Assembly: GCF_030538285.1 (NCBI RefSeq)
Contig: NZ_JAUNUG010000027.1
Coordinates: forward strand, 1-39,918
Source of the DNA: Corynebacterium sp.
GTDB lineage: Bacteria; Actinomycetota; Actinomycetes; Mycobacteriales; Mycobacteriaceae
Direction of reading: 5' to 3'
DNA length: 39,918 nt
The stretch's first letter is position 1. Each line of letters starts with the position of its first letter. Shown piece after piece: positions 16,295 through 35,103 of the stretch. Below the pieces are notes generated by a model that worked only from the letters and a program-made list of their open reading frames with translations, had not been told where the DNA came from and ran no database searches. A program made the translations under genes and the position numbers.

Positions 16295-16298
<4 letters not shown>

Positions 16299-16969: not shown

Positions 16970-18549
16970 CCGACACGCACCTGCTGGCCGATGGCATCGC
17001 GGTAGTTGGCGGCCTGGTTGAGCACCAGCTCCCCCGCCTTCACTCCAGTGACGGTGGCCTCAAAATCGGTGAGGATGCCCACCTTCACCGGCGCTTTCAC
17101 CACCTCATGGCGCTTGCCCTCCGGGCGCAGGACGAGGACGGAGTAGTCCCCGTTGTCGTCGATCAGCGCCTCCCGGGGCACCGTCAGCGACTTCGGGGCC
17201 TTCTCCGTGATGATCTGCGCCTTGGCGCTGCCCCCGATGCGCAGATCCTTGAGATCCCCGGTGACCTCGATCTCGACGGGGAACTCCGGGCGGGGTGCCT
17301 GGCCGGCGTTATCGGCGGGGGCGGCGTCAGCCACGGGGGAGACGTGGAGGACGCGGCCGCGATACTCACGGCTGCCGGTACTGGGGGTGGTGAAGGTGAC
17401 CTCGTTACCGACGCCCACCTTCCCGGCCTCCAGTTCCTTGAGCTTCGTCTTGAGTACCAGCCGATCCGGATCCGCAATGGTCGCCAGCGGGCCGGTGGCG
17501 GCACTGCCTTCCTTCGCCTCCACGGCGGTGACCAGCCCGGACATCGGGGCGCGGGCCTCCCGGGCGGCGACGTCCACCTGCAGGCGGCTGACCGACTGTC
17601 CGGCCGCGGACTGCGCGGCGGCCGCGCTGCGTTGGGCCTGTTCCACGGCGGTGGCGTTGGTGGCCATCTGCTGCGCCACGCCGAGGCGGGCAACCTCCAG
17701 CGCCACCGCGGCCTCCGTCTTCGCGGCGAAAGCCTGCGCTACTGCCCGCTGCTGGGTGGCCAGTTCCTGATCGACCCGCCGTAAGGAGATCTCCAGATTC
17801 TCCTGGGCGGTGGTGAGGTTCTGGTTGGCGCCAGCGTAACGCTGATCGGCCTCCAGCTCACCGAGGACCGGGGTGATGGTGTCAGCCTCAAGATTCTGCC
17901 CGGCGTTGACGGTGACCATGCCCGCCCGGGCGGCCTCCACGGCGGCGGTGAACACGTCGCGGCGCGCGGTATCGACGGCCGCGGCCTGCGCCACCAGGTC
18001 AGCGTCCGCCCCCTGCTCGAGGTTGCCGCGCCGATCTGCGAAAGCCTGCTCCGCGTCCGTGTACTGTCCCTCCGCCTGCCGCAGGGCAGCCTCCGCGGCG
18101 GTGACCTGCGGGTTAAGCCCCCGACCGACAGATTCCTGGAGCTGCTGGCTCTGCTGTTGTGCGCTTTCAATGGCGCTGAGGTTGGCGGCGTCGGTGGTGA
18201 TCTGCTGGGCGAGCTGAGCGTCGATCTCCTTCTGGATACCCGATACGTCGATCTCCGCCAGCACCTGCCCCTCCTGCACCCGGTCCCCGACACGGACATG
18301 CACGGTGTCCACCGGTCCACTGAGGTGGGTGGCCAGCGCGACGGAATGCCGAGACTCGATCGTCGCGGTGACCGGCACCTTCGATACGACGTCCTTGGGC
18401 TGCAGTTGCGTGTAGTCGGTGTCCGGTACGGTGCGTTCCGGCCCGGAGCGCAAAAGCCCCCAGGCACCGCCGAGGAGAATAAGGGAGGCGAGCACCGTCA
18501 GGGCGATGATCACCCGGCGATCAGAAAACAACGCAGAAATACTCTTCAC
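16966..18549 (-). CDS. HlyD/MacA-type membrane fusion (adaptor) protein
   Basis: The 527-residue protein starts with a membrane anchor (about 13-32, VIIALTVLASLILLGGAWGLL). A barrel/lipoyl half follows (VPVTATIESRHSVALATHLSGPVDTVHVRVGDRVQEGQVLAEID, about 54-97), then a long Ala/Gln-rich coiled coil (about 100-320). The second lipoyl half is ARAPMSGLVTAVEAKEGS, and C-terminal barrel domains follow. It would bridge the MacB-like permease to the cell-wall or mycomembrane side. The start is GTG at 18547-18549; TACGGT 7 nt upstream could be a -10 box for a leaderless mRNA. A decayed relative of its N-terminal half lies at about 32900-33310, at the other end of the polysaccharide island. Confidence 0.88.
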   Translation of the reverse strand: MKSISALFSDRRVIIALTVLASLILLGGAWGLLRSGPERTVPDTDYTQLQPKDVVSKVPVTATIESRHSVALATHLSGPVDTVHVRVGDRVQEGQVLAEIDVSGIQKEIDAQLAQQITTDAANLSAIESAQQQSQQLQESVGRGLNPQVTAAEAALRQAEGQYTDAEQAFADRRGNLEQGADADLVAQAAAVDTARRDVFTAAVEAARAGMVTVNAGQNLEADTITPVLGELEADQRYAGANQNLTTAQENLEISLRRVDQELATQQRAVAQAFAAKTEAAVALEVARLGVAQQMATNATAVEQAQRSAAAAQSAAGQSVSRLQVDVAAREARAPMSGLVTAVEAKEGSAATGPLATIADPDRLVLKTKLKELEAGKVGVGNEVTFTTPSTGSREYRGRVLHVSPVADAAPADNAGQAPRPEFPVEIEVTGDLKDLRIGGSAKAQIITEKAPKSLTVPREALIDDNGDYSVLVLRPEGKRHEVVKAPVKVGILTDFEATVTGVKAGELVLNQAANYRDAIGQQVRVG

Positions 18550-18962: not shown

Positions 18963-20429
18963 ATGACGAGCTCAAGCACTGCACCCGTTGCACCGAGAGA
19001 GGCACTCGCCGCTCGCCGCAATGGCCGTCGCCGCCGTCGGATGTCCCCCTGCAATGCACTGCACCTGGGTGACGCCCTCGCCATCGGACTGGCCTTGAGC
19101 ACCACGTTCCTTTCCGTGTACCCCCACCACATCCCGGCAGAGAATCCGCTTCGCCTCGACGGTCTCTACGCGTTGGGCTTCACTCTGTTCATCGGATGGC
19201 AACTGATGTTGGCCAACGCGGGCGCCTACTCCAGCCACACGCTGCAGGGCCTGAGGATTCCCGTCAAGAAGATCCTCGTCTCCACCCTCCTGCTGTTCGG
19301 CACCATCGCCATCATCGACCAGACCCTCCTCAACGTCGTGCCTACCCAGATGTTCTCCCGGGCGCTTCCTCTGGGACTGATCCTGATTTTCCTCGCGCGA
19401 CTTATCATCCGTGCGCAGTCCGCCAAGCATGTTCAGGATGGCAACCATACCCAGACGCACATTGTGCTTTGTGCTGGCGATTCATCCGACGACACTCTCG
19501 AGGACCTCCATCGCTGGCAACGCACCGGGGTCACCGTCATCGGCCACATTTCCGCGCGAGATGCGCTCGAGTCGGACACCCCCCTGATGTACATCCTCAA
19601 AGAGGTCGTCGACAGCGGTGCAGACACTCTGCTGTTGTCCCCGTTCTCGGGGCTCAGCGCAGAGCAGTCCCGTTCGCTCGGTTGGATCTTGGAGGGTGTT
19701 GGCATCGGGATGTCGTTCCTGTTGCCCATCAAGGGTGTCTCGGCCGAGAGGATGACGCTGCGGGCAGGTATCAAACCCTCGATCATTGACCTTGCCCCTG
19801 CGCGCTACAACGGCTGGTATTTCCACGTGAAGCGCCTGGTTGACATCGTCGCGGCGAGCTGCGGCATCATCCTGCTGCTACCGGCGTGGCTGATTGTGGC
19901 CGCGAGCATCAAATTGTCCGACGGTGGCCCTGTCTTCTTCTCCCAGGTCCGGGTCGGCCACAACGGGCGTCACTTCCGGATGCACAAGTTCCGCACGATG
20001 CGGACGGATGCCGAGGAGGCTCTCCAGGAGATGCGGGAACGGATGGGTATGTCCGCGGACAGCGGCAATGAGATCTTGTTCAAGCTCAAGTGCGATCCGC
20101 GGATCACCCGCGTGGGTGGTTTCCTACGCCGGTACAGCATCGACGAGCTCCCGCAGCTGTTCAATGTCTTGGCCGGTTCCATGACACTGATCGGACCGCG
20201 CCCGCCGCTGCCCCGCGAAGTGGCCAACTATGAGCCGGAGGTGTTGCGCAAGTTCCTCATCAAACCCGGCCTTACCGGCCTGTGGCAGACGATGGGTCGC
20301 TCGAACCTCTCGTGGAAGGATTCGGTCCATCTCGATCTGTACTACGCGGAGAACTGCTCACCACTGATCGATGTGCGGATCCTGCTGCGGACGGTCAAGG
20401 CCGTGCTGTCCAAGGAGGGCGCCTACTGA
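18963..20429 (+). CDS. Initiating polyprenyl-phosphate sugar-1-phosphate transferase
   Basis: The 488-residue protein has a basic N-terminus, four to five membrane helices (about 37-150) and a nucleotide-binding-like middle domain. A fifth long helix (about 285-315) leads into the bacterial sugar transferase catalytic domain. This contains KLSDGGPVFFSQVRVG, HKFRTMR, DELPQLFNVLAGSMTLIGPRPPLPREV and KPGLTGLWQTMGRS. Such enzymes attach the first sugar phosphate to undecaprenyl phosphate and start capsule, exopolysaccharide or O-antigen units. GGGGAG lies 6 nt before the ATG. It is the island's only enzyme gene on the plus strand and has its own complex upstream region. It overlaps the convergent WecG-type gene by 7 bp. 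The first sugar is unknown. Confidence 0.92.
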   Translation: MTSSSTAPVAPREALAARRNGRRRRRMSPCNALHLGDALAIGLALSTTFLSVYPHHIPAENPLRLDGLYALGFTLFIGWQLMLANAGAYSSHTLQGLRIPVKKILVSTLLLFGTIAIIDQTLLNVVPTQMFSRALPLGLILIFLARLIIRAQSAKHVQDGNHTQTHIVLCAGDSSDDTLEDLHRWQRTGVTVIGHISARDALESDTPLMYILKEVVDSGADTLLLSPFSGLSAEQSRSLGWILEGVGIGMSFLLPIKGVSAERMTLRAGIKPSIIDLAPARYNGWYFHVKRLVDIVAASCGIILLLPAWLIVAASIKLSDGGPVFFSQVRVGHNGRHFRMHKFRTMRTDAEEALQEMRERMGMSADSGNEILFKLKCDPRITRVGGFLRRYSIDELPQLFNVLAGSMTLIGPRPPLPREVANYEPEVLRKFLIKPGLTGLWQTMGRSNLSWKDSVHLDLYYAENCSPLIDVRILLRTVKAVLSKEGAY

Positions 20430-21145
20430 TCCTGCCTGGTGATATCCAGGCAGGATGGTGTCGGCTGGGCACCGATTCCCCGCAGCTTCTCGACGAATCG
20501 TCGCCGCCGCAGCACCGCCGTCACCGCATCCAGCGTGTAACGACGGATGAGTCGACGGGGTTCGTGGATGATCCTCCACAACCATCCCAGCCGCAGTCGG
20601 TGCACCCAGGCCGGGAAATACTGTTCCTTCCGGGAGTACTGGTCGATCCATCCCCCGGCGGTGCAGATCACCGCGTCCGGGGCCACTTTGTGCAACTCGA
20701 CGGCGACTTCGTCCTGCAGTCCGGCACCCAACCCTAGGACGATGACGTCGGGGGCGAAAGCCAGCAACTCCGCCGGATCGGCCCGCAGCCCCGCGAGTTC
20801 CCCGTAGCCGTCCCAGGCCCGGGTGTGGTGCCGTTCGATGCGGGCAGCGGCGGTGGTAGCCACGCCGGGAGCAGCACCGATGAGCGCCACCGCGCTGCCC
20901 GCCGGAAGTTCCTTGCGAAACAGGACCGGCAGAACAAGGTCCGCGGACGTCCGTCCCAGCTCCATGCCCGCGCGGCGCAGCAGCAGCTGCAGGAGAGTTC
21001 CGTCGATCCCGATACAGTCCACCCGCGAGAGCGCTGACCAGTCCGCGTGCTGGATGGACCAGTGATTCAGCCAGGTGACCACCGTGCCAGGTCGGGTGAT
21101 CCGGCGGGCGAGCTCCGCCACCGGGTCAGAGGTGCGCTGTGTCAT
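20423..21145 (-). CDS. WecG/TagA/CpsF family glycosyltransferase
   Basis: The 240-residue protein has the family core CIGIDGTLLQLLLRRAG with SADLVLP (about residues 45-70). It also has the nucleotide-sugar region VALIGAAPGVATTAAARI, APDVIVLGLGAGLQDEVAVEL, and the late motif TAGGWIDQYSRKEQYFPAWVHRLRLGWLWRIIHEPRRL. Characterised members add N-acetylmannosaminuronate (WecG) or N-acetylmannosamine (TagA) to a polyprenyl-diphosphate sugar. Here it probably adds the second sugar after the initiating transferase. The start overlaps the stop of the large secreted protein gene (ATGA), an unusual coupling. Confidence 0.88.
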   Translation of the reverse strand: MTQRTSDPVAELARRITRPGTVVTWLNHWSIQHADWSALSRVDCIGIDGTLLQLLLRRAGMELGRTSADLVLPVLFRKELPAGSAVALIGAAPGVATTAAARIERHHTRAWDGYGELAGLRADPAELLAFAPDVIVLGLGAGLQDEVAVELHKVAPDAVICTAGGWIDQYSRKEQYFPAWVHRLRLGWLWRIIHEPRRLIRRYTLDAVTAVLRRRRFVEKLRGIGAQPTPSCLDITRQDQ

Positions 21146-24100
21146 GGTGTGGTGACCTCCGCTGACAGTTCGAAAGTGATGGACGGGCTCGACCGGTAAT
21201 TAAGGTGTGTTTCCACCGCGATGCGGTTGCTGCCGGCGACGAGCGCTGCCACCGGGATCTCGATGATGAGCGGGTCCGCGATCGCGGTGGCCGTGTTCAC
21301 GGCTGCTTCTGCATTGGTGTGATGGGTGATCACGCCGTCCGGCATCCGGTGCCGCCCGATCTCCTCACCGTTGAGCCGGACGAGGACGCCGTCGTCGGCG
21401 CGGACTGTCAGGCGCAGCACCGCGGCGTCGTCAAGCTGTGCAGGATCGATGTCCAGGTCCTTGACGAAGTACATGGTGCGGGCGCGCTCAGCGTTCGGGA
21501 TATCTAGCACCGTGGCCACACCGTGGTGGCCCCAACCGATCGGAGCGATGCCCTGCTCCCACAGGGAGACATCGGCGATGGTGTCCCATCCGAGCTCGGG
21601 TTCCTCCAGCTCATACCAGTAACTCCAGACCTCCCCCTCGGTGATCCCCGGGGCATACACCGGTTCCTCCACCACCGGCTCCGGGGCCGGGGCCGCATCC
21701 GTCACCATGAGGTTCGCATCGAAGCTCATGTTCGGGCTGGAGAGGTAGTTGACGTGGGTCTCCACCGCCACGACGTTGGTCCCCTCCACCAGCCAGGCAG
21801 ATGGCACCTCGATGCGCGCACGCTCCGCCCGCGCGGCGGGCGTCGAGATCGCCTCGTGGGCACGGGTGCCCGGGTAGATCGGCCCCTCCGGCATGCGGGT
21901 GCGATGAATCTCCCGCCCGTTAAGGTAGACGACCGCCCCGTCATCCGCGACATAATCCAAGGTCGCCGTGGTGAAGGAGGTGGGGTCAGCCACCGTGAAC
22001 TCGTGGGCGAACCAGGTGGTCACCGGGCGCGGGGTACCGATAGGCGGTGTCACCTGCGTCGCCAGACCGCCCGCCCCGTAGCCCACCGGCACCGGCCCCT
22101 CCGACCAGGTGGAGCGGTCCGCCCCGACGGTGTTCCACTCCGGCGCGGGCACACCCTGATCGTAGGAGTAGTGCCACACTGCTCCCTCGTCGATGAGCAC
22201 CGGGGAGTTCGGGTCCACCTCACCCGGCGTGGGTGCCAGCCAGGCGCTTGTCGACGCCGAGCGGTTCCCCGCCGCATCGACGGCCCGGACGAAGAAGCGA
22301 TCATGGCCGCCGCGCGGGACACTCGCAGCCGTTCCTTCCACCTGGGCGATAACGCGGTCGTCGCGAAGCACTTCATAGGCCACCGCATCGTTGACCGCAG
22401 CCCAGCGCAGATCGATATTCTCTTCACCCGAGCCGTCCGCCCACACCTGGGACGGGGTCTCCGGCGCCTCGATGTCCATCGCCGGGTAGCGCACCCAGCC
22501 GCCGTTCCACTGCGAGGTAGTCAGCGACGTGTTCGAGCGGAGGAAATCACCACCCACCCACAGAGCACCGTCAGAGGCGATGTACAGGCTCCAGGCACCG
22601 CCGTTGGCGGATTTCAGGTGGTACGGGGAGAACTCACCCAGCTGGCGGCCGGTGCGGGCATCCCACGCGCCCACCCACTGGATGCTGTCGACCCGCGTCC
22701 AGTCCCGGTTCATGGTGGGCCACTGATAGGCGCTTTCATACATGTTCTCGGTGCAGTGGCACCCCGCATAGGTGATGTCACCGTTGGAGGCGATCGCCTG
22801 GAAATCACCGCCGATGCTCTTGGTGATGGAACCGGACAACCGGTCGAAGGTCTGCGCGTCGTGGCCGAAAAGGGAGTGCTCAGAACCGCCGATGAACAGC
22901 AACTCACCGGCATCCTCGATCGCCTGCTGGTAGTTCGTGCGCTCACTCGCACTGCCCTGGAAGACCCAATCCGACACGGGGAGTGCCCCGGGCTCGGTCG
23001 ACAACGCGGTGGCCTTCATCGCCATGTTGGTCGCCGAACGGGTGAAATAGCCGGCCGCGTAGAAACGATCCCCCGCGGCGGAGGTGTCGATGTCAACGAC
23101 TGTGCCGTTGAACTCCGGGTTCCAATAGCGATCGGGAGTTCCGTTGAGACGCACACGGCCCGCCCCGCGGGAGTAGGAGTCTCTCACCGAATCATCCGAC
23201 AGGTGGGTGAAGTTACCGCCGAGGTAGACGAAATCACCGGACAAGGACAACGACGTGACACTCACCAGGCCAGACGACAGGCGGTTGGTGCCCTGCAACG
23301 TCCAACTGGGATCGATCTCCCCGCTGTAAGCGTCAACGACCACAGTTCCGACGTGCGGCTCACCGTTGACATGGCGGAAGTCGCCGCCGACCAGGAGTCG
23401 GCCGTCGGGAAGCTCCAGGAGGGCCTTGACCTGGTTGTCAAGCTCCAGGCGGAAACCCTCGCGCAGATCTCCTGATACAGAATCGAAGGCGGCCAGCGCC
23501 GTCCGGGGCTCCACCCGACCGGTCGACTTCTGCTCAGCGTGCGTGAAGTTGCCGCCCACGAACATCGTGTCACCGATCTCCGCGAAGGCCTGCACCGGGG
23601 CATTCCCCTCCGCCACCCGCCCGTTCAGATTGCCGGTAACACCCCATGTCGTCGGAGCCGCGAAGTTGTCCACCAGCCCACGGGCCTGGGATGCCGGGGT
23701 GCCTTCCTCCGGGAGCGGAGCAAAATTCTGTTCCGAAGAGATACGGGGACGCAGATATATCTCGCTGTACGGCAGCGGTGCCGAACCCCGGGGCGACCAG
23801 AAGTAATTGTTCGGGGAAGTACTGCCTCCCAGGACCCACGAGCCGTAGCCGTAGCCGCGGTGCCAATCACGGGTCGAGGAGATGGACATATCCACGCGGT
23901 TATAGGAAGAATCCGTGCCGAAACTCGCCTCGAACTGCCCTCCCGAGCGCCACCACCCATTGTCGAAGCGGTAGCGGGCGGCGCTGTCCTCCGTGGCGTG
24001 AGCCCACGTCCACGTGGACATCTTCGCCGGGATGATGTCGACTGACTGCCACCTCGTGCCGGAGCTGTTTCGGGCCCGCACCACGCGCATGCCCTCGTCC

Positions 24101-24537
24101 AGCTCGTTGACCTTGGTCCCCGACAGCAGCCCGTTGACGGTATCGGTGGGCAGTTGCACGGGCTCGAAATTCTCCGGACCCCGACCACGGCCCAGCAGAC
24201 GCGCCGGGTCACCCGCGCCGTCGGCGTAGGGCTGCCAGCCCTCCCGGCCCTGACCGATGAGGACCCACCCGCCACCATCCATGGTCTGATCGCAGTAGAA
24301 CTGCTGCGGCGCCTCCATCTGCGGGGTGAGCAACCAGTAGGCGCCGCTCGGGAGGCGGGGAAAATCCTGCTTGAGGGCCCAGCACGAGCCCGCCGCCGTG
24401 GCGGGTGTGCTGCCGTCGCGTACGACCGGCACCGGATCCTGTGCGCGGGCAACCGGGGGAACAGCTACCGCCATCGACAGGCTGAGGATTCCCACCATGA
24501 ACAGAGAAAACAGGCGTGCAATCGAGACAGAGAACAC
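21142..24537 (-). CDS. Large secreted protein: fibrinogen-like domain, propeller, FN3, two C-terminal repeats
   Basis: This exported protein has 1131 residues. A signal peptide (1-33, hydrophobic core about 10-28, likely cut after ARA) is followed by a fibrinogen-like domain (about 51-266) with the diagnostic FYCDQTMDGGGWVLIG (80-95). A repeat region (about 285-690) has blade-like elements VGGNFTH, VGGDFRH, LGGNFTH, AAGYFTR, IGGSEHS and VGGDFLR. An FN3-like segment spans about 690-772, and two related repeats of about 165 residues (775-945 and 965-1130) each carry DDGxxVxLNGxEI-R-RMP and VETHxNYxSSP. There is no LPXTG motif or C-terminal membrane segment. The GTG at 24535-24537 is chosen because GGTGGA precedes it and it starts a normal signal peptide; an ATG lies 22 codons upstream. 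Carbohydrate binding is likely, not shown. Confidence 0.85.
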   Translation of the reverse strand: MFSVSIARLFSLFMVGILSLSMAVAVPPVARAQDPVPVVRDGSTPATAAGSCWALKQDFPRLPSGAYWLLTPQMEAPQQFYCDQTMDGGGWVLIGQGREGWQPYADGAGDPARLLGRGRGPENFEPVQLPTDTVNGLLSGTKVNELDEGMRVVRARNSSGTRWQSVDIIPAKMSTWTWAHATEDSAARYRFDNGWWRSGGQFEASFGTDSSYNRVDMSISSTRDWHRGYGYGSWVLGGSTSPNNYFWSPRGSAPLPYSEIYLRPRISSEQNFAPLPEEGTPASQARGLVDNFAAPTTWGVTGNLNGRVAEGNAPVQAFAEIGDTMFVGGNFTHAEQKSTGRVEPRTALAAFDSVSGDLREGFRLELDNQVKALLELPDGRLLVGGDFRHVNGEPHVGTVVVDAYSGEIDPSWTLQGTNRLSSGLVSVTSLSLSGDFVYLGGNFTHLSDDSVRDSYSRGAGRVRLNGTPDRYWNPEFNGTVVDIDTSAAGDRFYAAGYFTRSATNMAMKATALSTEPGALPVSDWVFQGSASERTNYQQAIEDAGELLFIGGSEHSLFGHDAQTFDRLSGSITKSIGGDFQAIASNGDITYAGCHCTENMYESAYQWPTMNRDWTRVDSIQWVGAWDARTGRQLGEFSPYHLKSANGGAWSLYIASDGALWVGGDFLRSNTSLTTSQWNGGWVRYPAMDIEAPETPSQVWADGSGEENIDLRWAAVNDAVAYEVLRDDRVIAQVEGTAASVPRGGHDRFFVRAVDAAGNRSASTSAWLAPTPGEVDPNSPVLIDEGAVWHYSYDQGVPAPEWNTVGADRSTWSEGPVPVGYGAGGLATQVTPPIGTPRPVTTWFAHEFTVADPTSFTTATLDYVADDGAVVYLNGREIHRTRMPEGPIYPGTRAHEAISTPAARAERARIEVPSAWLVEGTNVVAVETHVNYLSSPNMSFDANLMVTDAAPAPEPVVEEPVYAPGITEGEVWSYWYELEEPELGWDTIADVSLWEQGIAPIGWGHHGVATVLDIPNAERARTMYFVKDLDIDPAQLDDAAVLRLTVRADDGVLVRLNGEEIGRHRMPDGVITHHTNAEAAVNTATAIADPLIIEIPVAALVAGSNRIAVETHLNYRSSPSITFELSAEVTTP

Positions 24538-24620
24538 CGCGAACAATCCACCTTCAAGACATTTACCAGGGGCCTCCCAGGTCACGGCAGGCAGAGAAAC
24601 CATACCTTTTTCTCAGGATT

Positions 24621-24659
24621 ATCCACCATCTCCACTATCCACTATCTACCCCCGGGGGT
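24621..24659. repeat. Short imperfect tandem repeat and 12-bp palindrome in the leader of the secreted-protein gene
   Basis: Bases 24621-24647 are an imperfect run of ATCYACY units (ATCCACC, ATCTCCACT, ATCCACT, ATCTACC). They merge into the perfect palindrome ACCCCCGGGGGT (24648-24659), which is followed on plus by TTTTTCTC. The palindrome has no loop, so it is a better protein-binding dyad than a terminator. Its halves equal the AC5 motif found in front of the sugar transferase. Confidence 0.5.
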
Positions 24660-24664
24660 TTTTC

Positions 24665-26179
24665 TCAGCGCCGGGAACGCAGAAGCGCCACCAACCCGTC
24701 CAGCCGGAGCGCGCGCCGCAACCACCAGCACGCCATGACGTATAGGGCACCGCAGACCACCAGCGCCAGGAGCATCGCACCGACCGTCTGCCCCCACACC
24801 ATGCTGATGACCAGCGCGGGGATCGCGCCGGTGACCACCACCAACGCCAGGGGACGTGTCACCTCCCACCACGGGGCGGAAATTCCCAGAAAAACCTTGA
24901 CCTCTAGGGCGGCGAGGGCTGCGTCGATAAGCATGCTGGCGGCCCACACGAAAGCCGCACCTTCAATCCCCCACACCGGGATCAACAACACATTGCCGAC
25001 GACGTTGATCACCAGCACCACCACCTTGTTGATCGCCGCCCACCCACTACGCCCGCTCATGATCAGCAACGAGTGGATATTGCCCGCCAGAAATGTCACC
25101 GTGATGCCCACCGCCAGAATTGCCAGCACCGTAACCCCCTCCCGGAACCCCGGACCCAGCAGATCCAGGAACACCGGGGCGAAAACCGCCAACAGGACAT
25201 AGATCGGCGATGCAATGAGCACCAGCCAGATCGTCGCGGTGACATAGAGATCACGCACCTCCTCGTCCTTCCGCTGATGGAGCAACGCTGAGAATCGCGG
25301 CGAGACCACCACTCGGAGGGCAGCGTCCACCACCAGGCCCGCCTGGATGAAGCGAGCGGCACCCCCGTAGACACCGGCTGCCTGATCACTGAGCAACCAG
25401 CCGACCAGCAACACATCAACCCAGATGATCGCCTGCTCCAGCCCGGCCGACGCCGTCCGCGGAGCCGCGAAACCGATGATCTCCCGCACCTGCGTACGCG
25501 TCGGCCACAGCCTGCCCGCCTGTCCTGCCTCCAGGCGCCCCACATGGCCGGAGACCATCACCGCCGCCACCATCATCAGCAACACCAGCGGCAGTGCCCA
25601 CGCCACCGCGACCACGACCACAGAACCCGTGGCCACCGCAGCCACCGCCACCAGCGGCGGACGCAACGCCGGGATGGCGATGTTGTTGACCACGACATAC
25701 TCACGCACCGAGCCGAGCGCGCGCAGAATCGCCGCCGCGATGAGCATCACCGCGCCGGCAGGAATGAACACTCCCAGTGCCCGCACGGAACCGGACACGG
25801 GGTTTCCCTCCCCCGGCCACAACAGCGGCGCCACGAACTGTAGGAGCACGGCCAACGCCACGCTGGCCACCAACGCGATGAGCACGAAGGCCATGATGGT
25901 GGACCGGATCCGGCGGGGATCATCCAACCGGACGCGGGGAAGCAGGTAGATGGCAGTCGAGTCGAGCCCTACCTTGGCAAACGCCAGGACCACCGCAAAG
26001 ACACCCGTGGCCTGGAAGACGACACCGGCACCGTCCGCGCCGAGCAGACGGGTGATCACCACGGTGAGCACGAAGCCCAGAAGGGCGCTGGCGGCAGAGC
26101 CGAAAAAGCTCAGACCACCACCCCGGGCCAGCTCACGCCTGCCCTCCCGCACCGTCGATGCCGTCTCATCCCGGCTCAC
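24665..26179 (-). CDS. Wzx-type polysaccharide flippase (MOP superfamily)
   Basis: The 504-residue membrane protein has about 14 predicted helices. The start (GGGLSFFGSAASALLGFVLTVVITRLLGADGAGVVFQA, about residues 19-57) is typical of polysaccharide flippases of the MATE/MOP superfamily. It would move polyprenyl-linked repeat units across the cytoplasmic membrane before polymerisation by the Wzy-type protein. The start is GTG at 26177-26179. It is divergent from the lipoprotein gene, with an AT-rich 75-bp gap. It stands apart from the upstream glycosyltransferase block and may have its own promoter. Confidence 0.87.
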   Translation of the reverse strand: MSRDETASTVREGRRELARGGGLSFFGSAASALLGFVLTVVITRLLGADGAGVVFQATGVFAVVLAFAKVGLDSTAIYLLPRVRLDDPRRIRSTIMAFVLIALVASVALAVLLQFVAPLLWPGEGNPVSGSVRALGVFIPAGAVMLIAAAILRALGSVREYVVVNNIAIPALRPPLVAVAAVATGSVVVVAVAWALPLVLLMMVAAVMVSGHVGRLEAGQAGRLWPTRTQVREIIGFAAPRTASAGLEQAIIWVDVLLVGWLLSDQAAGVYGGAARFIQAGLVVDAALRVVVSPRFSALLHQRKDEEVRDLYVTATIWLVLIASPIYVLLAVFAPVFLDLLGPGFREGVTVLAILAVGITVTFLAGNIHSLLIMSGRSGWAAINKVVVLVINVVGNVLLIPVWGIEGAAFVWAASMLIDAALAALEVKVFLGISAPWWEVTRPLALVVVTGAIPALVISMVWGQTVGAMLLALVVCGALYVMACWWLRRALRLDGLVALLRSRR

Positions 26180-26204
26180 AGGACCGCCCTTTCCGCACCG
26201 GGCA

Positions 26205-26235
26205 CAGTGCTAATATCTAAACTATCCATACTTAC
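26205..26235. promoter_or_regulatory. AT-rich divergent promoter region, flippase / lipoprotein
   Basis: The 75-bp gap between the GTG at 26179 and the ATG at 26255 includes TAATAT (26211-26216) and TAAACT (26218-26223) on plus, and TATTAG on minus. These are good candidate -10 boxes. No convincing -35 boxes are seen. Confidence 0.35.
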
Positions 26236-26254
26236 ATGCCCCTGGGAGTATCCT

Positions 26255-26812
26255 ATGATGCGGTTTCTCATCGCCGCCGTAATCACGGCGCCCCTCACCC
26301 TCCATGGGTGCTCGAATAGCTCCTCCGAGAACCCACCCAGCCCGGAATCCTCAGCGGAGGTGACTACCCCCACCACCACATCAACGGTGGCGGCCCCGGC
26401 CGCCCCCTCCCCGGAAGGCATCGACACCGGGCTGATGGAGGAGATCGTCGACGTGAGCTTGTCCACCCTGGAAGACCCGACGGCCTCCCTCGACCTCAGC
26501 GAGGTCCTCACCGCCGCTGCCCTGGAGGACATCGAGAACCAACGCCAGGAATGGGCGGTCGAAGGATGGCACCAGGAGGGTGAGGCCTCCGTCACCGTCT
26601 CGGACATTGAGCCGAGCGATAATCCATCGGTGGTCCGCGCCCAGGTGTGCGTCGATTCCTCGGAGGTACGCGTCGTGGATGGCAACGGGGTTGTCATCAA
26701 TGCGGATGTCCCGGCGGAGGAACGACGTTCACTCATGGTGGTCACCTTCGTCCAGGAGGGCGAACTGTGGCGGATGGCCGAGCGCACATTCCCCGACGAT
26801 CCCCGCTGCTGA
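26255..26812 (+). CDS. Putative lipoprotein
   Basis: The 185-residue product has a type II signal peptide: MMRFLIAAVITAPLTLHGC, with the lipid-modified Cys at 19 (His at -2 is unusual). A Ser/Thr/Pro/Ala-rich linker (about 20-60) and a soluble domain (about 65-185) of alternating helix and strands follow. It resembles small NTF2/DUF4878-like lipoproteins only in general shape; I do not recognise the family. The open frame begins 16 codons earlier, but GGGAG lies 6 nt before the ATG pair at 26255. Its last 71 bp are antisense to the end of the Wzy-type gene. It is one of two plus-strand genes in the island. It could anchor or guide the glycan machinery, but no function is shown. Confidence 0.75.
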   Translation: MMRFLIAAVITAPLTLHGCSNSSSENPPSPESSAEVTTPTTTSTVAAPAAPSPEGIDTGLMEEIVDVSLSTLEDPTASLDLSEVLTAAALEDIENQRQEWAVEGWHQEGEASVTVSDIEPSDNPSVVRAQVCVDSSEVRVVDGNGVVINADVPAEERRSLMVVTFVQEGELWRMAERTFPDDPRC

Positions 26813-28061
26813 TGACGGTGTCCGGCCGGAGCGCCAGGGCCACTACGACCATCGACACCATGATGCCAGTCATCATGCCGTAGAAGACTGTCTCCACGAG
26901 GGTGGCCAGAATAAGTCCACCGAGCACCGACCCCACCACATCCCGGCGGCGTATCACCAGCAAAAACGCCCCGAGCAGGAACCCGGTGAACAGAGCGGCG
27001 CCAATAAAACCGTGGGAGTACAGCACGGTCCAGAACTGACCCTGCGTGCCCAGGGAAGGCAACCAGGGTTCCTCCGCCGGGCGCGGAGAGCCGTAGCCGA
27101 ACAGCGGTGACTGCAACACCGCCTCAAAGGTGGAGCGGTACAACTGCGCACGGTCCACGGTGGAATCGGTGGTCTCCACACGGTTTTCCAGCGCCTGCCC
27201 CAACGGGGACACCGCCCACAAAGCGGCCCCCGCGAGACCGGCGACAGCCCCGCCCACCACCAGGAAAATACGTCCCCGGAGCAGCGCCTGGAACAGCACC
27301 CACGCGAGAACCACCCCGAGCCCGATGAACATGCCCCTGTTGAGGGTGCTCAGGGCGGGGACAGTGCTGGCCAGGATCACCAGTAGGGTGGGCCAGCGGT
27401 AGCGGGTACCCCAGCACAACCACAGGTGGAGTAACGCCAGAGGAAGCACCAGGGAGTAGATGTTCCCCCAGGTGTTCGCATAAAGGAAAGGCGCGACCGG
27501 CCGGAGGGCCTGCTCGATCCACGCCTCCGGGTTCCAATGCGCCATCCGACGCACGATCATCTCGTCGATGAGCTGATTGGAGGCCAGACCGCGCGGCATG
27601 ATCCACGACATGGGCGTGCGGATCACCGCCAGCGGGAACGCCATCGCCAGGTACCCGGCCAGCGTCATCCCCGCCAGAAACCACACCATCGCCCCCGTCA
27701 CCCGGTGCAGCGGAAGAGCGCGTCGGGCATTGAAGGTGTGCACCAGGAGAATCCCGGCGGAGGTGTACAGAAGGAGCCGGTACACCGAACCTACGATGCG
27801 GCCGGGGCTGTCATTCATCGCCAACGACACCCCGGCCCAGGCCAAGAACAGCACCCACAGAATGACCACCGGGGGAATGCGCAGACCTCGAGTGCCCAGC
27901 CAACTCGCGACGATCAGCAGGCCGGCGATGATCCAGATGAAGTCGCCGACACCCAGCACCCACCACAGCACGTAGGCCGAAAACGGCAACAGGACCAGGG
28001 CGCCACCCAGGTTCTCCGCCCGGCGCGGGGTCCGGGGGCGGGACGTCGGGTACGTGATCAT
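26742..28061 (-). CDS. Wzy-type O-antigen polymerase/ligase family membrane protein
   Basis: The 439-residue protein has 10-12 membrane helices and an extracytoplasmic loop. The region LSTLNRGMFIGLGVVLAWVLFQALLRGRIFLVVGG (about residues 237-275) is the hallmark of the Wzy_C/O-antigen ligase fold, with the conserved R in the S-x-x-R-G element. The loop around YRSTFEAVLQSPLFGYGS carries the G-x-G-x-(P) motif. It would polymerise flipped repeat units or ligate the glycan. The ATG overlaps the stop of the GT2 gene upstream. The C-terminus has a basic tail and ends inside the opposite-strand lipoprotein gene, so the last 23 codons are shared antisense sequence. Confidence 0.85.
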   Translation of the reverse strand: MITYPTSRPRTPRRAENLGGALVLLPFSAYVLWWVLGVGDFIWIIAGLLIVASWLGTRGLRIPPVVILWVLFLAWAGVSLAMNDSPGRIVGSVYRLLLYTSAGILLVHTFNARRALPLHRVTGAMVWFLAGMTLAGYLAMAFPLAVIRTPMSWIMPRGLASNQLIDEMIVRRMAHWNPEAWIEQALRPVAPFLYANTWGNIYSLVLPLALLHLWLCWGTRYRWPTLLVILASTVPALSTLNRGMFIGLGVVLAWVLFQALLRGRIFLVVGGAVAGLAGAALWAVSPLGQALENRVETTDSTVDRAQLYRSTFEAVLQSPLFGYGSPRPAEEPWLPSLGTQGQFWTVLYSHGFIGAALFTGFLLGAFLLVIRRRDVVGSVLGGLILATLVETVFYGMMTGIMVSMVVVALALRPDTVISSGDRRGMCARPSATVRPPGRR

Positions 28062-29329
28062 GTCGGCCTCTCGGGTGCGCGCCGCTGGCGGAGGATTTCC
28101 CGGATAAGCAGCATCGGTCCGCGGAGGAAACCCCTGATTTCCTGGTGGCTGAGCGTCCCCGGGACATCATCTTCGTTGCCCTGCATCCGCTCGGTGCCCG
28201 GTGCGACGCGCGAGAGGATCGACGGCACCCGACGAAGGAGAACCACCAGGTCTTTCGGGCGGCGGAGCAGGGAGACGGTCAGCAGCGCAGCCATGCCGGT
28301 GCCGTTGCCGTGAATCTGTTTCTCCAGTCCGGCCATGTCCCGGCGATGGACGTGGTGGACCACGGCATCCGGGTTGTAGATGATGGCTAAGCCGGCGCGG
28401 AGGACGCGGGCGAAGGCGTCGAGATCCTCTCCGCCGTTGGTGAGGGTCCCCGCCCCCAGGCGGACGTCAAAGTCGCCGAGGGCCGCCAGCGCCGGGCGAC
28501 TGAAGGCCATGGACACCCCGGCACCGACGCGGGCGGTGGCCACTGGAAACAGGGGGCCGCCCTCCCCGCGGGCCCCGAAGCGGGCGCACTGCGGGGAGGG
28601 GTCGTCGAGTGACCACACGACGGGCTCGAGTTGTTTGGGGAATCCACCGCGGGCCTCGAAGAAACGCTGCGAACGGCTCTGCAGCTCAGCAGCGAAAGCG
28701 GGGCCGGTGACCGCGCCAACCTCACCGGGCGGGGCGGAGGCGAAGACATCGAGCAGAGACGCCAGCCAACTGGGGTGTGGGAGAGCATCGTCATCAGTGA
28801 AGGCGATGATCTCCCCCGTCGCAGCCGCCACCCCTGCATTCCGCGCGCGGGACAGCCCGGGGTGGGGTTCGTCCACGATGCGTAGGCGCGGATCACGGTG
28901 ATCGTCGAGAAGCTGGCGGGTGGCGCCAGAGGCGGGGTCGTTGTCGACGATGATGATTTCCACGCGACGGTGGGTCTGGGCCAGCAGCGCAGCAACGGTC
29001 ACGCGGAGAAGTGGGTTTCTGCCTAGGGTGCAGACAACCACCGTGGCGGCGAGGTCGCGGCCCGCCCCGTCCTGCCATCCACGCAGCGGCGCCGGGTCAG
29101 GGTGGGCGGCGCTGCCACGTTCGGCTGCCTCCCCCGCCCCGTCGAGGGTGACCAGGGCGCAGGTGCGACGCCCGTCCCGGACCAGGACCTGTGCCCGCGG
29201 ATCGGTGTCCGCGCCGGAGATGACGGTGACCTCGGCGGTGGCCCGGTCCACGACGGCGACCAGGCTGCGCCGGGGGTCCGGGTCAGTCACCGCTGGTTGC
29301 TCGTGCAGAATGGCCCGCGCGCTGCCCAT
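28058..29329 (-). CDS. GT2 family glycosyltransferase with N-terminal extension
   Basis: This 423-residue cytosolic protein has a GT-A fold from about residue 95: TVVVCTLGRNPLLRVTVAALLAQTHRRVEIIIVDND, DEPHPGLSRARNAGVAAATGEIIAFTDDDALP with the metal-binding DDD at 179-181, and a later GGEDLDAFARVLRAG element. The first 90 residues (SLVAVVDRATAEVTVISGADTDPRAQVLVRDGRRTCALVTLD) form an extra domain not usual for GT2 enzymes. It transfers an unknown sugar to the polyprenyl-linked unit. It starts 7 bp after the Wzz-type gene and overlaps the Wzy-type gene by 4 bp. Confidence 0.87.
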   Translation of the reverse strand: MGSARAILHEQPAVTDPDPRRSLVAVVDRATAEVTVISGADTDPRAQVLVRDGRRTCALVTLDGAGEAAERGSAAHPDPAPLRGWQDGAGRDLAATVVVCTLGRNPLLRVTVAALLAQTHRRVEIIIVDNDPASGATRQLLDDHRDPRLRIVDEPHPGLSRARNAGVAAATGEIIAFTDDDALPHPSWLASLLDVFASAPPGEVGAVTGPAFAAELQSRSQRFFEARGGFPKQLEPVVWSLDDPSPQCARFGARGEGGPLFPVATARVGAGVSMAFSRPALAALGDFDVRLGAGTLTNGGEDLDAFARVLRAGLAIIYNPDAVVHHVHRRDMAGLEKQIHGNGTGMAALLTVSLLRRPKDLVVLLRRVPSILSRVAPGTERMQGNEDDVPGTLSHQEIRGFLRGPMLLIREILRQRRAPERPT

Positions 29330-29336
29330 GGTGGTG

Positions 29337-30524
29337 CTACCTCCCTGCCGTTGTCATGGCCGCGCGTTCCTCGGCGACAAGCGCGCCGATGAGTTGCGTT
29401 CCCATGGAAGCGATATCCTCGCGCAGGTCATCCAGGTCCGCTTTCGTCCACGTCGGCGGGATGATGACCACGGCGTGGCGGCCGACAACCAGGTCCGCCA
29501 GCACCTCCGCGCGGTCTCTGCCCAAGTTCACCCGGACGGTGCGCCCGGTAGCGGCGATCGCGCCAGCAGCCGCCAGAGCGTCGGCATTGCCTTCGTCGGT
29601 GAGCACCATGAGCGGCTGCTCCGAGCCGCGCTGATGGTGGGCCAGGGTGGCGGCGACGGCCCAGCGTTCCGGTTCGCCATAAGGAGCCTGGGGACGCAGC
29701 AACCGGACACCGAGGATGTCCCGGATGTCCTCGGGATTCCGCGCCACCCGATCAAAGGTGTGGCGCAGTACGGCCAGGACCAGTCCCAGGACGAGTCCGG
29801 CGAGGATGCCAAGGGCGATGACCCTCCACACCACCGGGGATTGTTCCTGAGGGGTGCTGGCGGCGGGCGAGATAACCTGCCCTGCCTCGGTAGCAGGGTC
29901 TTCGAGCGCAGCCAGCCGCTGCTGCAGCGCCATGATGCCGGATTCTATCGATTCGGTGCGCACCTGAGTGGCGGGGCCGAACAAGCCGCTGGTGCGGAGT
30001 TCCTCGAGCTCTTCCTCGTAGTCCGTGAGTCGGTCGGCGATGTTCTCCCGCATGCCACGGACCCGTTCCGCCACCATCGTGGAGCGGACAGTGAGGTAGG
30101 AGCTGGCAAGTGCGTCGGCTCCCTCAATGGCGCGTGCCCGGTCAGTGTCGGTGTAAGACAATGCGAGAACGGTGCTGGTGGGATCGCCCGCGACGCTCAA
30201 CCCGGAGCTCAGTTCACCGGCGGTCCAGCCGTCGCCGAGGGTGGTGGCCGCGTCCGCGGTGGTGAGGGCGGAGGCCGCGAGCTGACGCTCGGTGGGGATG
30301 TCCAGCACGCTGGACAGGGAACGACCCTCGGGGATGGGCTCGGCGCCCAGCGCGGTGATGCTCACCCGGGCAGTGGCGGTATAGGTCGTAGGCGCAAGCA
30401 ACAGGTAGGCGAGGCTGCAGACGATACCGATCACCGTGCCGAGGACAATCCATTTCTTGCGCTGCCGGACAATCCTGGACACGACGGCGACGTCGAGCGA
30501 GCTCTCGGGGTTGTCCGCATTCAT
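29337..30524 (-). CDS. Wzz/CapA-type chain-length protein with degenerate kinase-like tail
   Basis: The 395-residue protein has two membrane helices (about 25-43 and 233-254) flanking an extracytoplasmic Wzz domain with a coiled coil (about 150-180, ERVRGMRENIADRLTDYEEELEELR). These set polysaccharide chain length and export. The cytoplasmic tail (about 260-395) resembles a BY-kinase fold (MVLTDEGNADALAAAGAIAATGRTVRVNLGRDR ... HAVVIIPP). However, residues 309-318 lack the Walker A GK(S/T), and there is no Tyr cluster, so it should not phosphorylate. The frame opens 15 codons earlier. The ATG at 30524 is chosen for AAGGA upstream and the ATGA overlap with the preceding GT2 gene. Confidence 0.85.
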   Translation of the reverse strand: MNADNPESSLDVAVVSRIVRQRKKWIVLGTVIGIVCSLAYLLLAPTTYTATARVSITALGAEPIPEGRSLSSVLDIPTERQLAASALTTADAATTLGDGWTAGELSSGLSVAGDPTSTVLALSYTDTDRARAIEGADALASSYLTVRSTMVAERVRGMRENIADRLTDYEEELEELRTSGLFGPATQVRTESIESGIMALQQRLAALEDPATEAGQVISPAASTPQEQSPVVWRVIALGILAGLVLGLVLAVLRHTFDRVARNPEDIRDILGVRLLRPQAPYGEPERWAVAATLAHHQRGSEQPLMVLTDEGNADALAAAGAIAATGRTVRVNLGRDRAEVLADLVVGRHAVVIIPPTWTKADLDDLREDIASMGTQLIGALVAEERAAMTTAGR

Positions 30525-31438
30525 GAATTGGGATCCTTCCGTTGTGTCGTTCGGGTGGTGCGCGCCCACCGCAGCCTCTCGCGGAGTCGGCGGCGCAGGA
30601 GTAGCTGTTGCCTGCGGGGAAGCGCCTCAATGACCGGCGTGACGGTGTCCGCGAAGTGGCGCAGCGCGGTCTCCTTCTCTGCCAGTCCCAGCTGGGCGAT
30701 GGCCACGATTCTGCGCAGCCTTTGGCCGGTGAGCTTCTCGCTGAGGTCGGCGAACGCCTCCGCCTGCCGGGGGTTGGTCCATGACCGCTGGTGCCAGCCC
30801 GCGGTGGCGGTGACCTGCTGGGGATGCGCGCGGCAGACGAGGCTGTTGTAAGGCAGACGGCGGAGACGGGCGTCGTGTGTGGCCATGCGGATCCACAGGT
30901 CGTAGTCCTCGGCCGGGACGTCGCGGAACCCGCCGGCTACCTCGATGGCGTCCCGCCGCGCAATCATGGAGGGATGCGTCACCGGGTTTGTCAACAGCAG
31001 GTGCACCGGGAAAGCCTCCGGCCCGATCCCCAGGGGGAGTTCCGGCCGGAGTTTCGGTCCGTTCATGCGGGTGACCTGGGTGAAGACGGCATCGATTCCG
31101 CGATCGAGGGCCGGCAGGCTGACCCGGAACCTCCAGGGCAGGCTGATGTCGTCGGCGTCCATCCGGGCGATGAGCTCGGAATCCACCTCGGGCAGCATCG
31201 AAGTGAGCGCATTCGCCAGGCTGCCGGACGGCGGTCGGGACACCACCGTCAATCGCTTATCGACGACGCCGCGCCGGGTCCCCGCCTCCCGGGCCTTGTC
31301 AGCGGTGGCATCGGTGGATCCGTCGTCGAGGACGTAGAGCTGCGCGTCCTGCGGCATCCCGCGCAGGGTGGAGGCGACCGCGGTAGCGATGGTCCCCTCG
31401 GCGTTGAGCGCCGGAAGCAGCACTGTCATGTGTGGCAT
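30521..31438 (-). CDS. GT2 family glycosyltransferase
   Basis: The 305-residue protein has a compact GT-A domain: MTVLLPALNAEGTIATAVAST (4-24), DDGSTD (38-43), the metal-binding RMDADD (92-97) and the acceptor-side EDYDLWIRMATHD. The C-terminus is strongly basic and Arg/Gln-rich (about 270-305), suitable for membrane surface binding. It adds a sugar to the growing repeat unit. It lies 5 bp after the CDP-alcohol phosphatidyltransferase gene and overlaps the Wzz-type start (ATGA), so the whole block is translated as one unit. Confidence 0.9.
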   Translation of the reverse strand: MPHMTVLLPALNAEGTIATAVASTLRGMPQDAQLYVLDDGSTDATADKAREAGTRRGVVDKRLTVVSRPPSGSLANALTSMLPEVDSELIARMDADDISLPWRFRVSLPALDRGIDAVFTQVTRMNGPKLRPELPLGIGPEAFPVHLLLTNPVTHPSMIARRDAIEVAGGFRDVPAEDYDLWIRMATHDARLRRLPYNSLVCRAHPQQVTATAGWHQRSWTNPRQAEAFADLSEKLTGQRLRRIVAIAQLGLAEKETALRHFADTVTPVIEALPRRQQLLLRRRLRERLRWARTTRTTQRKDPNS

Positions 31439-31443
31439 GGTGT

Positions 31444-32175
31444 TTATCCCTGTGCCTTATCGAGGGCGGTGAGATCACGGTAGCGACGTCGCAGGGACAC
31501 CGCCGAGTGGGCGAGCGCCACGGCCGCCAGAACCGTGTAGACCACTGCGAATACGGGCGCGATCCCCCACAGGATGTAGGACCAGCACAGGGTGCCGGGG
31601 TCGGTGGGCAGGAGGATCCACGAACGCCGATCCCCTCCCCGGCTCTGCTTGCGCCCGGCGGTGCGGACGAAGGACTCCGCCAGGATCTGGCTCAGGAACT
31701 GCCCACTCGTGATCAGCGAGTAGGCCACGGCGACCACCGCCAGCCACCACAGCTCCGGACGGTGGATCATCACCGCCACCGCGGTGGCGACGTGGATCGC
31801 CGGAGAGCGGAAAGCGTCCACGACATGGTCGATCCACTCCCCCGTCTTCGAGGACCTCCCCGACAGCCGCGCCAGCTGGCCGTCGGCGGAATCGAAGAGG
31901 TAGCCCGCCGCCAGGAGGAAAGCCACCGGCACCCCCAACCACACCGACGGCGGGACAACGAGAAGCAGGATCATGCCAGCGACGGATAGAGCAGCGGACA
32001 TGGCGGTGACCATGTTCGGGGTCCACCCAAAGGCATAGCCGACGGCCGCGACCACCCGGGCGCCCCGCCGGTTCACCCAGCGGGTGTACGCCGGCACTCC
32101 CTGTCCGGTTTTTTGTGCGGAGTCGAGTGAAGCGCGTGCCCACCGGTAGCGCGCACCCCACGTATCCCCGCTCAT
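31444..32175 (-). CDS. CDP-alcohol phosphatidyltransferase family protein
   Basis: The 243-residue membrane enzyme has about six helices and the intact family motif D95-S-A-D98-G99-x2-A102-R103-x8-G112-x3-D116-x3-D120. The aspartates bind metals and catalyse displacement of CMP from a CDP-alcohol by an acceptor hydroxyl. The TagD-like gene directly upstream overlaps its start (ATGA), so it probably uses the CDP-alcohol made by that enzyme. In a glycan locus the acceptor may be a lipid, a polyol phosphate or a sugar of the repeat unit. This is distinct from the housekeeping phosphatidylglycerol or cardiolipin synthases by context only. Confidence 0.9.
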   Translation of the reverse strand: MSGDTWGARYRWARASLDSAQKTGQGVPAYTRWVNRRGARVVAAVGYAFGWTPNMVTAMSAALSVAGMILLLVVPPSVWLGVPVAFLLAAGYLFDSADGQLARLSGRSSKTGEWIDHVVDAFRSPAIHVATAVAVMIHRPELWWLAVVAVAYSLITSGQFLSQILAESFVRTAGRKQSRGGDRRSWILLPTDPGTLCWSYILWGIAPVFAVVYTVLAAVALAHSAVSLRRRYRDLTALDKAQG

Positions 32176-32645
32176 GCCGGGGTGTCCTGGGGCGCATCCT
32201 CCGACAGGCCCTTGAGCAGGAATGTGCGCAGGATGCTCGAGGAGGTCGTCGGCGTATAAGGCAGGTACGTCACCCGGGCGCCGACCTCAGCCAGCTCCTT
32301 TTCCAGCCGCTCGCCCTTGGGGGTGTCTTTCCAGTCATCTCCCTTAAAGAGCACGTCGAAGTGTCGCCGCTGCCATGCCAACCGTTTATCCTGGTCCACA
32401 TCGGGGACCACCTCATCGACGAAACGCAGCGCCTCCACCAACATCATCCGCTCGGGGTGGGGAATGACCGGTAGACGTCCCTTCATACGTTCCAGGGATT
32501 CATCCGTTGCCACTCCGACCACGAGCAGGTCGCAACGCTCTCGCGCGGCAGTAAGAAGGTTAATGTGTCCCACGTGCAGCATGTCAAAGCCCCCGGGAAC
32601 GTATCCGACAATAGGGCGATTCTCAGGATCTGACGTGTTCGACAA
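32172..32645 (-). CDS. TagD-like cytidylyltransferase (TTG start)
   Basis: The 157-residue nucleotidyltransferase has the HxGH motif in GGFDMLHVGH (H24 and H27) and a region FKGDDWKDTPKG. It also has TSSSILR near the C-terminus in place of the RTxGISTT motif. The family uses CTP with glycerol-3-phosphate, phosphoethanolamine or related phospho-alcohols to make CDP-alcohols. The N-terminal open frame has no ATG or GTG before the core. TTG at 32643-32645 is preceded by AAGGA with 6-nt spacing and is the likely start. It is the first gene of the minus-strand glycan operon and overlaps the CDP-alcohol transferase. The substrate may be glycerol-3-phosphate or another polyol phosphate. Confidence 0.86.
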   Translation of the reverse strand: MSNTSDPENRPIVGYVPGGFDMLHVGHINLLTAARERCDLLVVGVATDESLERMKGRLPVIPHPERMMLVEALRFVDEVVPDVDQDKRLAWQRRHFDVLFKGDDWKDTPKGERLEKELAEVGARVTYLPYTPTTSSSILRTFLLKGLSEDAPQDTPA

Positions 32646-34912: not shown

Positions 34913-35052
34913 GGAAAACCTCATAGCATTGCGGGACGTGATGGTCAGAAGACGGAGGTGGAGAACCCCGACCTCATGCGGTTCACGCAATATTACAAGC
35001 AGTTACTCAGTGTGGGAGGAGGAATGACCTCACATTCGCCCGGAACGCCAAA

Positions 35053-35076: not shown

Positions 35077-35103
35077 GTGGCCGTCACGGCGTCGAAAAGC
35101 GAC

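Follow-up and report, generated by a model that had tools for sequence, protein, structure and literature searches.

What is a gene cluster for a polysaccharide doing between two ribosomal protein genes of a Corynebacterium, and what might it make? The cluster (positions 18963 to 32645) lies in a stretch of 39,918 bases, hereafter the window, which is an entire contig of a 2.95-Mb Corynebacterium genome. Here rplN (10915 to 11283, minus strand) and rpsQ (35104 to 35388, minus strand) are separated by 23.8 kb, with the cluster inside. Our analysis shows that it encodes a complete Wzx/Wzy-type pathway with dedicated additions, rare in Corynebacterium and widespread in actinobacteria. We propose, with slightly better than even confidence, that it directs a Wzy-dependent surface polysaccharide that would carry a phospho-alcohol supplied by a pair of enzymes, a TagD-like nucleotidyltransferase and the cytidine diphosphate (CDP)-alcohol phosphotransferase CdpAlc, and would be bound by its own lectin-like protein, FibSurf.

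Gene content and arrangement

The pathway enzymes are recognizable by family. The initiating polyprenyl-phosphate sugar-1-phosphate transferase (PGT), of the long form (18963 to 20429, plus strand), matches PF02397 with 216 bits and TIGR03025 with 333 bits (cut-off, 295.6). The Wzx flippase (24665 to 26179, minus strand) matches PF01943 with 46.7 bits and also PF13440, both above cut-off, and the Wzy polymerase, of the O-antigen ligase/polymerase family (26742 to 28061, minus strand), reaches 41.3 bits with PF04932 (cut-off, 31.7). Three glycosyltransferases are encoded on the minus strand, namely the family 2 glycosyltransferases (GT2) GT2a (28058 to 29329; PF00535, 90 bits) and GT2b (30521 to 31438; PF00535, 54 bits) and an enzyme of the WecG/TagA/CpsF type, here WecG (20423 to 21145; PF03808, 86 bits). 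The chain-length protein Wzz (29337 to 30569, minus strand; PF02706, 33.6 bits, above cut-off) has no Walker A kinase motif: a pattern search of the window protein and of 48 homologous frames, two of which belong to the same genome, gave no match where the kinase motif would stand, and the single match among the homologues, at residue 109 in locus L063, lies outside that position. A tyrosine autokinase attached to Wzz is common in Wzx/Wzy pathways and is not required. PGT, Wzx, Wzy, Wzz and glycosyltransferases thus stand together, all above the Pfam cut-offs, and the predicted pathway class is well supported.

Four further genes accompany these. FibSurf (21142 to 24603, minus strand) is a large secreted protein of 1,153 amino acids that matches NF040941 with 70 bits (cut-off, 30). 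Lipo (26255 to 26812, plus strand) is a small probable lipoprotein of 185 amino acids that ends in cysteine, and its frame is conserved in all ten Corynebacterium clusters. CdpAlc (31444 to 32175, minus strand; PF01066, 45.8 bits; cut-off, 22) is overlapped at its start by the TagD-like gene (TagD; 32172 to 32645, minus strand; PF01467, 63 bits; cut-off, 21). A preliminary description of this DNA had reported a Wzx/Wzy island between rpsQ and rplN; it had the coordinates right, its families score above curated cut-offs, and the genes that it listed are borne out, but it missed the largest gene, FibSurf, and Lipo.

TagD, CdpAlc, GT2b, Wzz, GT2a and Wzy form one minus-strand run with small gaps or overlaps. 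Lipo lies on the opposite strand, its 3' end overlapping that of wzy (convergent) and its start back to back with that of the divergent wzx, about 75 bases away. Beyond Lipo follow Wzx, FibSurf and WecG on the minus strand and then the plus-strand PGT gene, convergent with WecG. A minus-strand frame of 203 amino acids (26176 to 26787) was rejected as a gene; the opposite frame, Lipo, is the conserved one, and the 203-residue frame is best read as its antisense echo.

Occurrence in Corynebacterium

How common is the cluster in the genus? Among 242 Corynebacterium genomes, CdpAlc occurs at 67% identity or more in 10, the next-best match being a partial one at 34%, and FibSurf (Expect value [E], ≤0.001) occurs in the identical 10 genomes and no others. 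All 10 carriers share one gene order, TagD, CdpAlc, GT2b, Wzz, GT2a, Wzy, Lipo, Wzx, FibSurf and WecG, and because nine genomes besides our own show these ten genes in that arrangement, chance can be excluded. All 11 genes are present in the ten genomes; PGT lies at either end of the cluster, and some carriers have it relocated or in a shorter form. In five carriers the alignment spans almost the whole PGT, and in the other five it covers the C-terminal part only, which in genome G085 aligns as two pieces. In G142 and G027 (loci L117 and L119), PGT aligned over the catalytic part only and is placed at the TagD end. The FibSurf gene of G027 contains one in-frame stop.

The preliminary description had held that the cluster is not standard in the genus, and the 10 carriers among 242 genomes agree with this; the gene set is far from universal in corynebacteria. 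Glycans that start with a PGT are not in themselves unusual for the genus, since some PGT match is found in 62 of 201 genomes. Nor are Wzx/Wzy pathways as a class foreign to it: according to PMC7305114, C. glutamicum has wzx, wzy, wzz and glycosyltransferase genes around cg0419 to cg0438.

Occurrence in other actinobacteria

A scan of named genomes with a CdpAlc alignment found 95 relatives, and we kept the best 80 loci. They come from Schaalia, Actinomyces, Propionibacterium, Microbacterium, Cryobacterium, Leucobacter, Rothia, Kocuria, Arthrobacter, Brachybacterium and others, and include Microbacterium sp. TPD7012, Corynebacterium pilosum DSM 20521 and one metagenome-assembled Corynebacterium genome. 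Near CdpAlc in these 80 loci we found FibSurf in 75, Wzx in 72, Wzy in 71, Lipo in 67, TagD in 62, GT2a in 60 and Wzz in 50; no flank exceeded 10 kb and several contigs end early, so that truncation accounts for part of the lower counts. The combination of CdpAlc, FibSurf, Wzx, Wzy and Lipo stands within about 20 kb in 64 of the 80. Gene orders differ. In 47 of the 67 loci with Lipo, this gene shares the strand of FibSurf and is no more than 1.5 kb from it, and 46 of the 75 loci with FibSurf have CdpAlc at a distance of 1.5 kb or less. Less constant are GT2b (27 loci), PGT (19) and WecG (16). A constant core with such changing glycosyltransferases is what one would expect of a serotype-like polysaccharide locus. 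What the preliminary description took for an isolated corynebacterial island forms a single branch within a family of clusters found across many actinobacterial genera.

Two samples that were searched with FibSurf itself, so that CdpAlc was not the starting point, extend this picture. Among 199 genomes of another actinobacterial family, FibSurf (E ≤1e−60) was found in 12, with CdpAlc within about 0.7 kb in all 12; one of these genomes, G680, has a second FibSurf copy on another contig, where no CdpAlc is listed. In a draw of 396 genomes from the phylum, 60 match FibSurf at E ≤1e−10, mostly in the repeat or C-terminal regions only, and long matches are few. Eight regions fetched from 7 of the 60 contain CdpAlc in two cases (the G510 region is cut by the contig end); in G498 and G455, CdpAlc, Wzy and Wzx stand alongside FibSurf.

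One locus of a different makeup is L107 (6998 to 20601) of Cryobacterium sp. 1639, where CdpAlc stands, without FibSurf, among PGT, family 4 glycosyltransferase and Wzz-kinase genes. A protein of 1,034 amino acids with laminin-G and PKD domains is encoded nearby and is perhaps a second lectin-like partner.

The TagD-like enzyme and CdpAlc

Taken together, TagD and CdpAlc most closely resemble, in sequence, the two halves of CDP-alcohol chemistry. The nearest solved relatives of TagD are ethanolamine-phosphate and glycerol-3-phosphate cytidylyltransferases and 5x3d, listed as phosphoenolpyruvate phosphomutase, which we take to be the cytidylyltransferase domain of Fom1. The HxGH motif is present in 69 of 71 homologous frames. 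CDP-alcohol phosphotransferases (PF01066) carry the motif D..DG..AR........G...D...D, and its four aspartates are invariant in all 25 aligned CdpAlc relatives. The pair shares its protein families and reaction order with the known systems of ethanolamine-phosphate or glycerol-3-phosphate cytidylyltransferase and CDP-alcohol phosphotransferase; it differs from them in scoring far below the equivalog cut-offs, in its signature motif and in its setting within a polysaccharide cluster.

Could the pair serve a lipid instead of a glycan? TagD and CdpAlc would then make a lipid anchor or a special phospholipid, and the product would be a membrane-bound, lipoglycan-like polymer. The closest solved relatives of CdpAlc are AF2299 and choline/ethanolamine phosphotransferase; the latter acts on lipids, as does phosphatidylinositol-phosphate synthase, another solved relative. 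However, TagD overlaps CdpAlc in the window and is its neighbor in 62 of the 80 named loci, and this pairing counts against a lipid anchor because enzymes of this kind that use CDP-diacylglycerol are not known to need a soluble cytidylyltransferase. In addition, known corynebacterial lipomannan and lipoarabinomannan enzymes are absent from the families matched by the cluster proteins. The hallmark of the lipomannan and lipoarabinomannan pathway is phosphatidylinositol-mannoside and membrane mannosyltransferases. We therefore regard the lipid anchor as rather unlikely, although it is the strongest of the alternatives to a phospho-alcohol on the polysaccharide itself.

FibSurf and Lipo

FibSurf begins with a fibrinogen-like, intelectin-like N terminus, followed by a propeller-like repeat region, a probable FN3 domain and two jelly-roll-like repeats (the signal peptide, FN3 and jelly-roll calls were made by eye). 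A 25-row profile of the N-terminal 235 residues matches intelectins best (E of 1.8e−8, profile residues 12 to 58), then angiopoietins and tenascins, with all of these matches inside the first 75 residues. The middle region consists of repeats with weak propeller matches and has no solved relative better than an E of 0.098. The C-terminal repeat matches a region of the rhamnosidase 3w5m (E of 6.7e−8), an enzyme that presumably carries a rhamnose-binding module. With intelectins (X-type lectins) FibSurf has in common an N-terminal SCxxIK...GGGW fibrinogen-like segment; it differs in being bacterial and about four times longer, with the intelectin ligand site outside the alignment.

All 69 homologous frames of Lipo (a few from the same genome twice) end in cysteine, often as FPDDPxC-stop, and a second cysteine is invariant in a 24-row alignment; the two together suggest a disulfide. 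Lipo is probably membrane anchored: the lipobox of the window protein was judged by eye, and a pattern search found a lipobox-like site in 14 of the 69 frames, for which a script had chosen the start codons. The match of Lipo to PF19843 (DUF6318) is weak (18.1 bits, under the cut-off of 23.8), and among 24 relatives three match DUF6318 at E values up to 0.01, four ARC6-like_IMS and one PorA.

Proposed function

How might these proteins work together? Drawing on what is known of the families, we infer that PGT, WecG and the two GT2 enzymes would assemble sugars on undecaprenyl phosphate, that Wzx would flip the unit and that Wzy, with the kinase-less Wzz, would polymerize it. The remaining steps are less certain. 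The TagD-like enzyme would form CDP-X, X being some alcohol, and the membrane protein CdpAlc may move phospho-X onto the lipid-linked glycan. Secreted FibSurf, with lectin-like domains at both ends, might then bind or cross-link the polymer at the cell surface, and the small Lipo protein might assist it.

Several observations weigh against this proposal. For TagD, the score with the TIGR01518 equivalog (73.6 bits) is far under the cut-off of 165.4, and 70 of 71 homologous frames have TxxTSS[TS]xLR and not RTxGISTT. The latter is the signature motif of the TagD-type cytidylyltransferases. For FibSurf, the alignment with intelectins is confined to profile residues 11 to 75, which leaves the ligand-binding half, with the residues that bind calcium and sugar, outside. 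The pairing of FibSurf with CdpAlc also has its gaps: 5 of the 80 named loci have no FibSurf (two of them are short contigs), and in L106 and L109, counted among the 75, only a quarter of FibSurf aligns. In the family of 199 genomes, CdpAlc (E ≤1e−30) occurs in 63, of which 51 have no FibSurf at E ≤1e−60; hence, the job of CdpAlc does not need FibSurf. Finally, G354 of the phylum draw is an exception to the pairing, with a FibSurf-like match that covers two-thirds of the model, whereas the 20 kb fetched around it contain no CdpAlc.

Is the locus then an ordinary exopolysaccharide cluster, with nothing but proximity to connect FibSurf, Lipo and the CDP-alcohol pair? Clusters of the Wzx/Wzy kind are frequent and of mosaic makeup, PGT and the glycosyltransferases vary among the loci, and CdpAlc is found without FibSurf too. 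Against this, FibSurf and CdpAlc remain associated in differing gene orders and in many genera and are jointly present or absent in Corynebacterium, which makes mere neighborhood quite improbable in our view. Protein glycosylation, in which the PF04932 protein would act as an O-linked oligosaccharyltransferase on FibSurf or Lipo, would draw on a family that includes ligases and protein transferases besides polymerases and on the secreted protein tied to the cluster, but Wzz, present in all ten Corynebacterium clusters and in 50 of the 80 named loci, points to polymerization, and we see little chance for it. We thus retain, as the favored interpretation, a Wzy-dependent polysaccharide with a phospho-alcohol and its own lectin-like protein.

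A bolder version of this interpretation is a self-reading coat: many actinobacteria may mark their polymer with a phospho-alcohol, and the intelectin-like protein of the same cluster would recognize the mark and knit the layer. Were X glycerol, it would suit an intelectin-type site, because intelectin-1 binds exocyclic vicinal diols (PMC12800186). We offer this idea as speculation that is more probably wrong than right.

History of the cluster in Corynebacterium

How did so few corynebacteria come to have the cluster? We mapped it on a tree built from rpoB of 29 genomes, the 10 carriers and 19 others of our choice. The carriers fall in six lineages; six changes are needed, and the starred branches force five. 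A single carrier clade is rejected by rpoB (P value of the approximately unbiased test [p-AU], 1.7e−6), and vertical descent within Corynebacterium is thereby rejected on this tree. When the cluster data were tested against the rpoB order, the p-AU was 0.044, which is too weak to tell transfer inside the genus from repeated loss; transfer is possible. In a tree of concatenated cluster proteins with 14 named outside loci, which we chose from the 80, the Corynebacterium clusters form one branch (Shimodaira-Hasegawa-like approximate likelihood ratio test [SH-aLRT], 100) beside two Actinomyces clusters (SH-aLRT, 99). The best explanation of these trees would be a single origin of the Corynebacterium copies nearest to Actinomyces-type clusters, followed by repeated loss or relocation, with most copies in the rpsQ-rplN gap.

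Loss at this site is seen in G019, the nearest relative of the window on the rpoB tree (support, 91). Its interval retains nothing of the cluster but a relic (L120, 8457 to 11506), the N-terminal 50 residues of TagD (72% identity; 114 bases at 79%); two long frames beside the stump are apparent transposases, recognized by eye. From this relic it follows that the cluster probably occupied the site in the common ancestor of the window and G019 and was lost later. Another genome, G075, is close to the window in its L14 (98%) and GTPase (92 to 93%) proteins, and its rpsQ lies about 165 bases from macA; it gave no rpoB and is not in the tree.

The rpsQ-rplN gap and the flanking genes

Seven of the 10 carriers have the cluster between rpsQ and rplN. 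Of the other three, G214 has it downstream of rplN at a distance of about 4 kb, G142 more than 1 Mb away and G027 on another contig. The preliminary description had placed the island inside a broken S10-spc ribosomal cluster; the break is commonplace and does not belong to the finding. Among the matches listed, 100 genomes have both genes on one contig, and the interval is broken in every one of them, with lengths from 1,042 to 47,496 bases (median, 8,619); 27 of these 100 intervals exceed 15 kb, and 20 of the 27 are without the cluster. What the gap contains varies among the measured genomes, as had been suggested, and the gap was not created by the cluster. Intervals of 31.9 to 47.5 kb that do not hold the cluster occur in G156, G165, G192, G196 and G197. 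In G106, rplN (C1:405602) and rpsQ (C1:1857107) are more than 1.4 Mb apart on opposite strands.

Directly after rpsQ (about 35045 to 35080, minus strand) there is a GC-rich hairpin followed by four T residues, which is likely the S10 terminator and would agree with the suggestion of the preliminary description that such a terminator may isolate the junction. A terminator scan with a five-T rule, which did not cover the region upstream of rplN, found 8 candidates against a shuffle mean of 7.9, hence no excess, and did not list this hairpin.

The cluster is flanked by a lactate/oxalate-type transporter of the major facilitator superfamily, a MacAB-like exporter and two dynamin-like GTPases. In the window the exporter and the GTPases (11762 to 18549) stand beside rplN; some relatives that carry the cluster have them, as do some that lack it. 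The flanking genes are not part of the cluster, because carriers G136 and G026 are without them in the fetched stretches and G075 and G103 have the MacAB and GTPase genes without the cluster.

Two artifacts or special origins were rejected. The genome is rated 6.73% contaminated, yet the order of the contig, including the ribosomal genes, recurs in relatives G170 and G029, whose assemblies consist of one and three contigs, and a chimera is therefore dismissed. Carriage on a plasmid is unsupported; the one plasmid-record match is weak (36% identity, Actinomyces oris).

Relation to known systems and significance

The C. glutamicum region is similar in belonging to the same genus and in combining Wzx, Wzy and Wzz with glycosyltransferases for a surface polysaccharide; there, deletion of cg0424 and then also of cg0420 reduced surface mannose and arabinose. 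It differs in lying elsewhere, judged by gene numbers, and the passages of PMC7305114 that were consulted do not mention a CDP-alcohol pair. We found no match to the GGGWT/FibSurf family in 14 control genomes, C. glutamicum included. The wps and imp clusters of Actinoplanes missouriensis likewise represent the Wzx/Wzy type in actinobacteria and include PGT, Wzz and glycosyltransferases, and two of the four studied, besides imp, matter for sporangium formation; unlike for our cluster, the main text of PMC13390465 mentions no fibrinogen, CDP-alcohol, phosphatidyltransferase or lipoprotein. The text of PMC12369343 contains the cluster terms only in one reference. A literature search, covering mostly titles and abstract openings, part of the matches and few subscription journals, found no published account of the gene set.

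In summary, what seemed an odd corynebacterial island is a defined, recurrent gene set of Schaalia, Actinomyces, Rothia, Propionibacterium, Microbacterium and other genera. Several of the carrier genera are residents of the human mouth. Their surface glycans matter for phage attachment: phage LC001 attaches to cell wall polysaccharides and teichoic acids of Schaalia odontolytica, according to a 2026 review (PMC13414283), and the polymer of this cluster is only a candidate for the LC001 receptor. The gene set also allows single-gene tests of the role of a glycan-linked CDP-alcohol transferase and of bacterial intelectin-like proteins on their own coat. If the coat does read itself, it would be a bacterial counterpart of the animal lectins that read microbial glycans.

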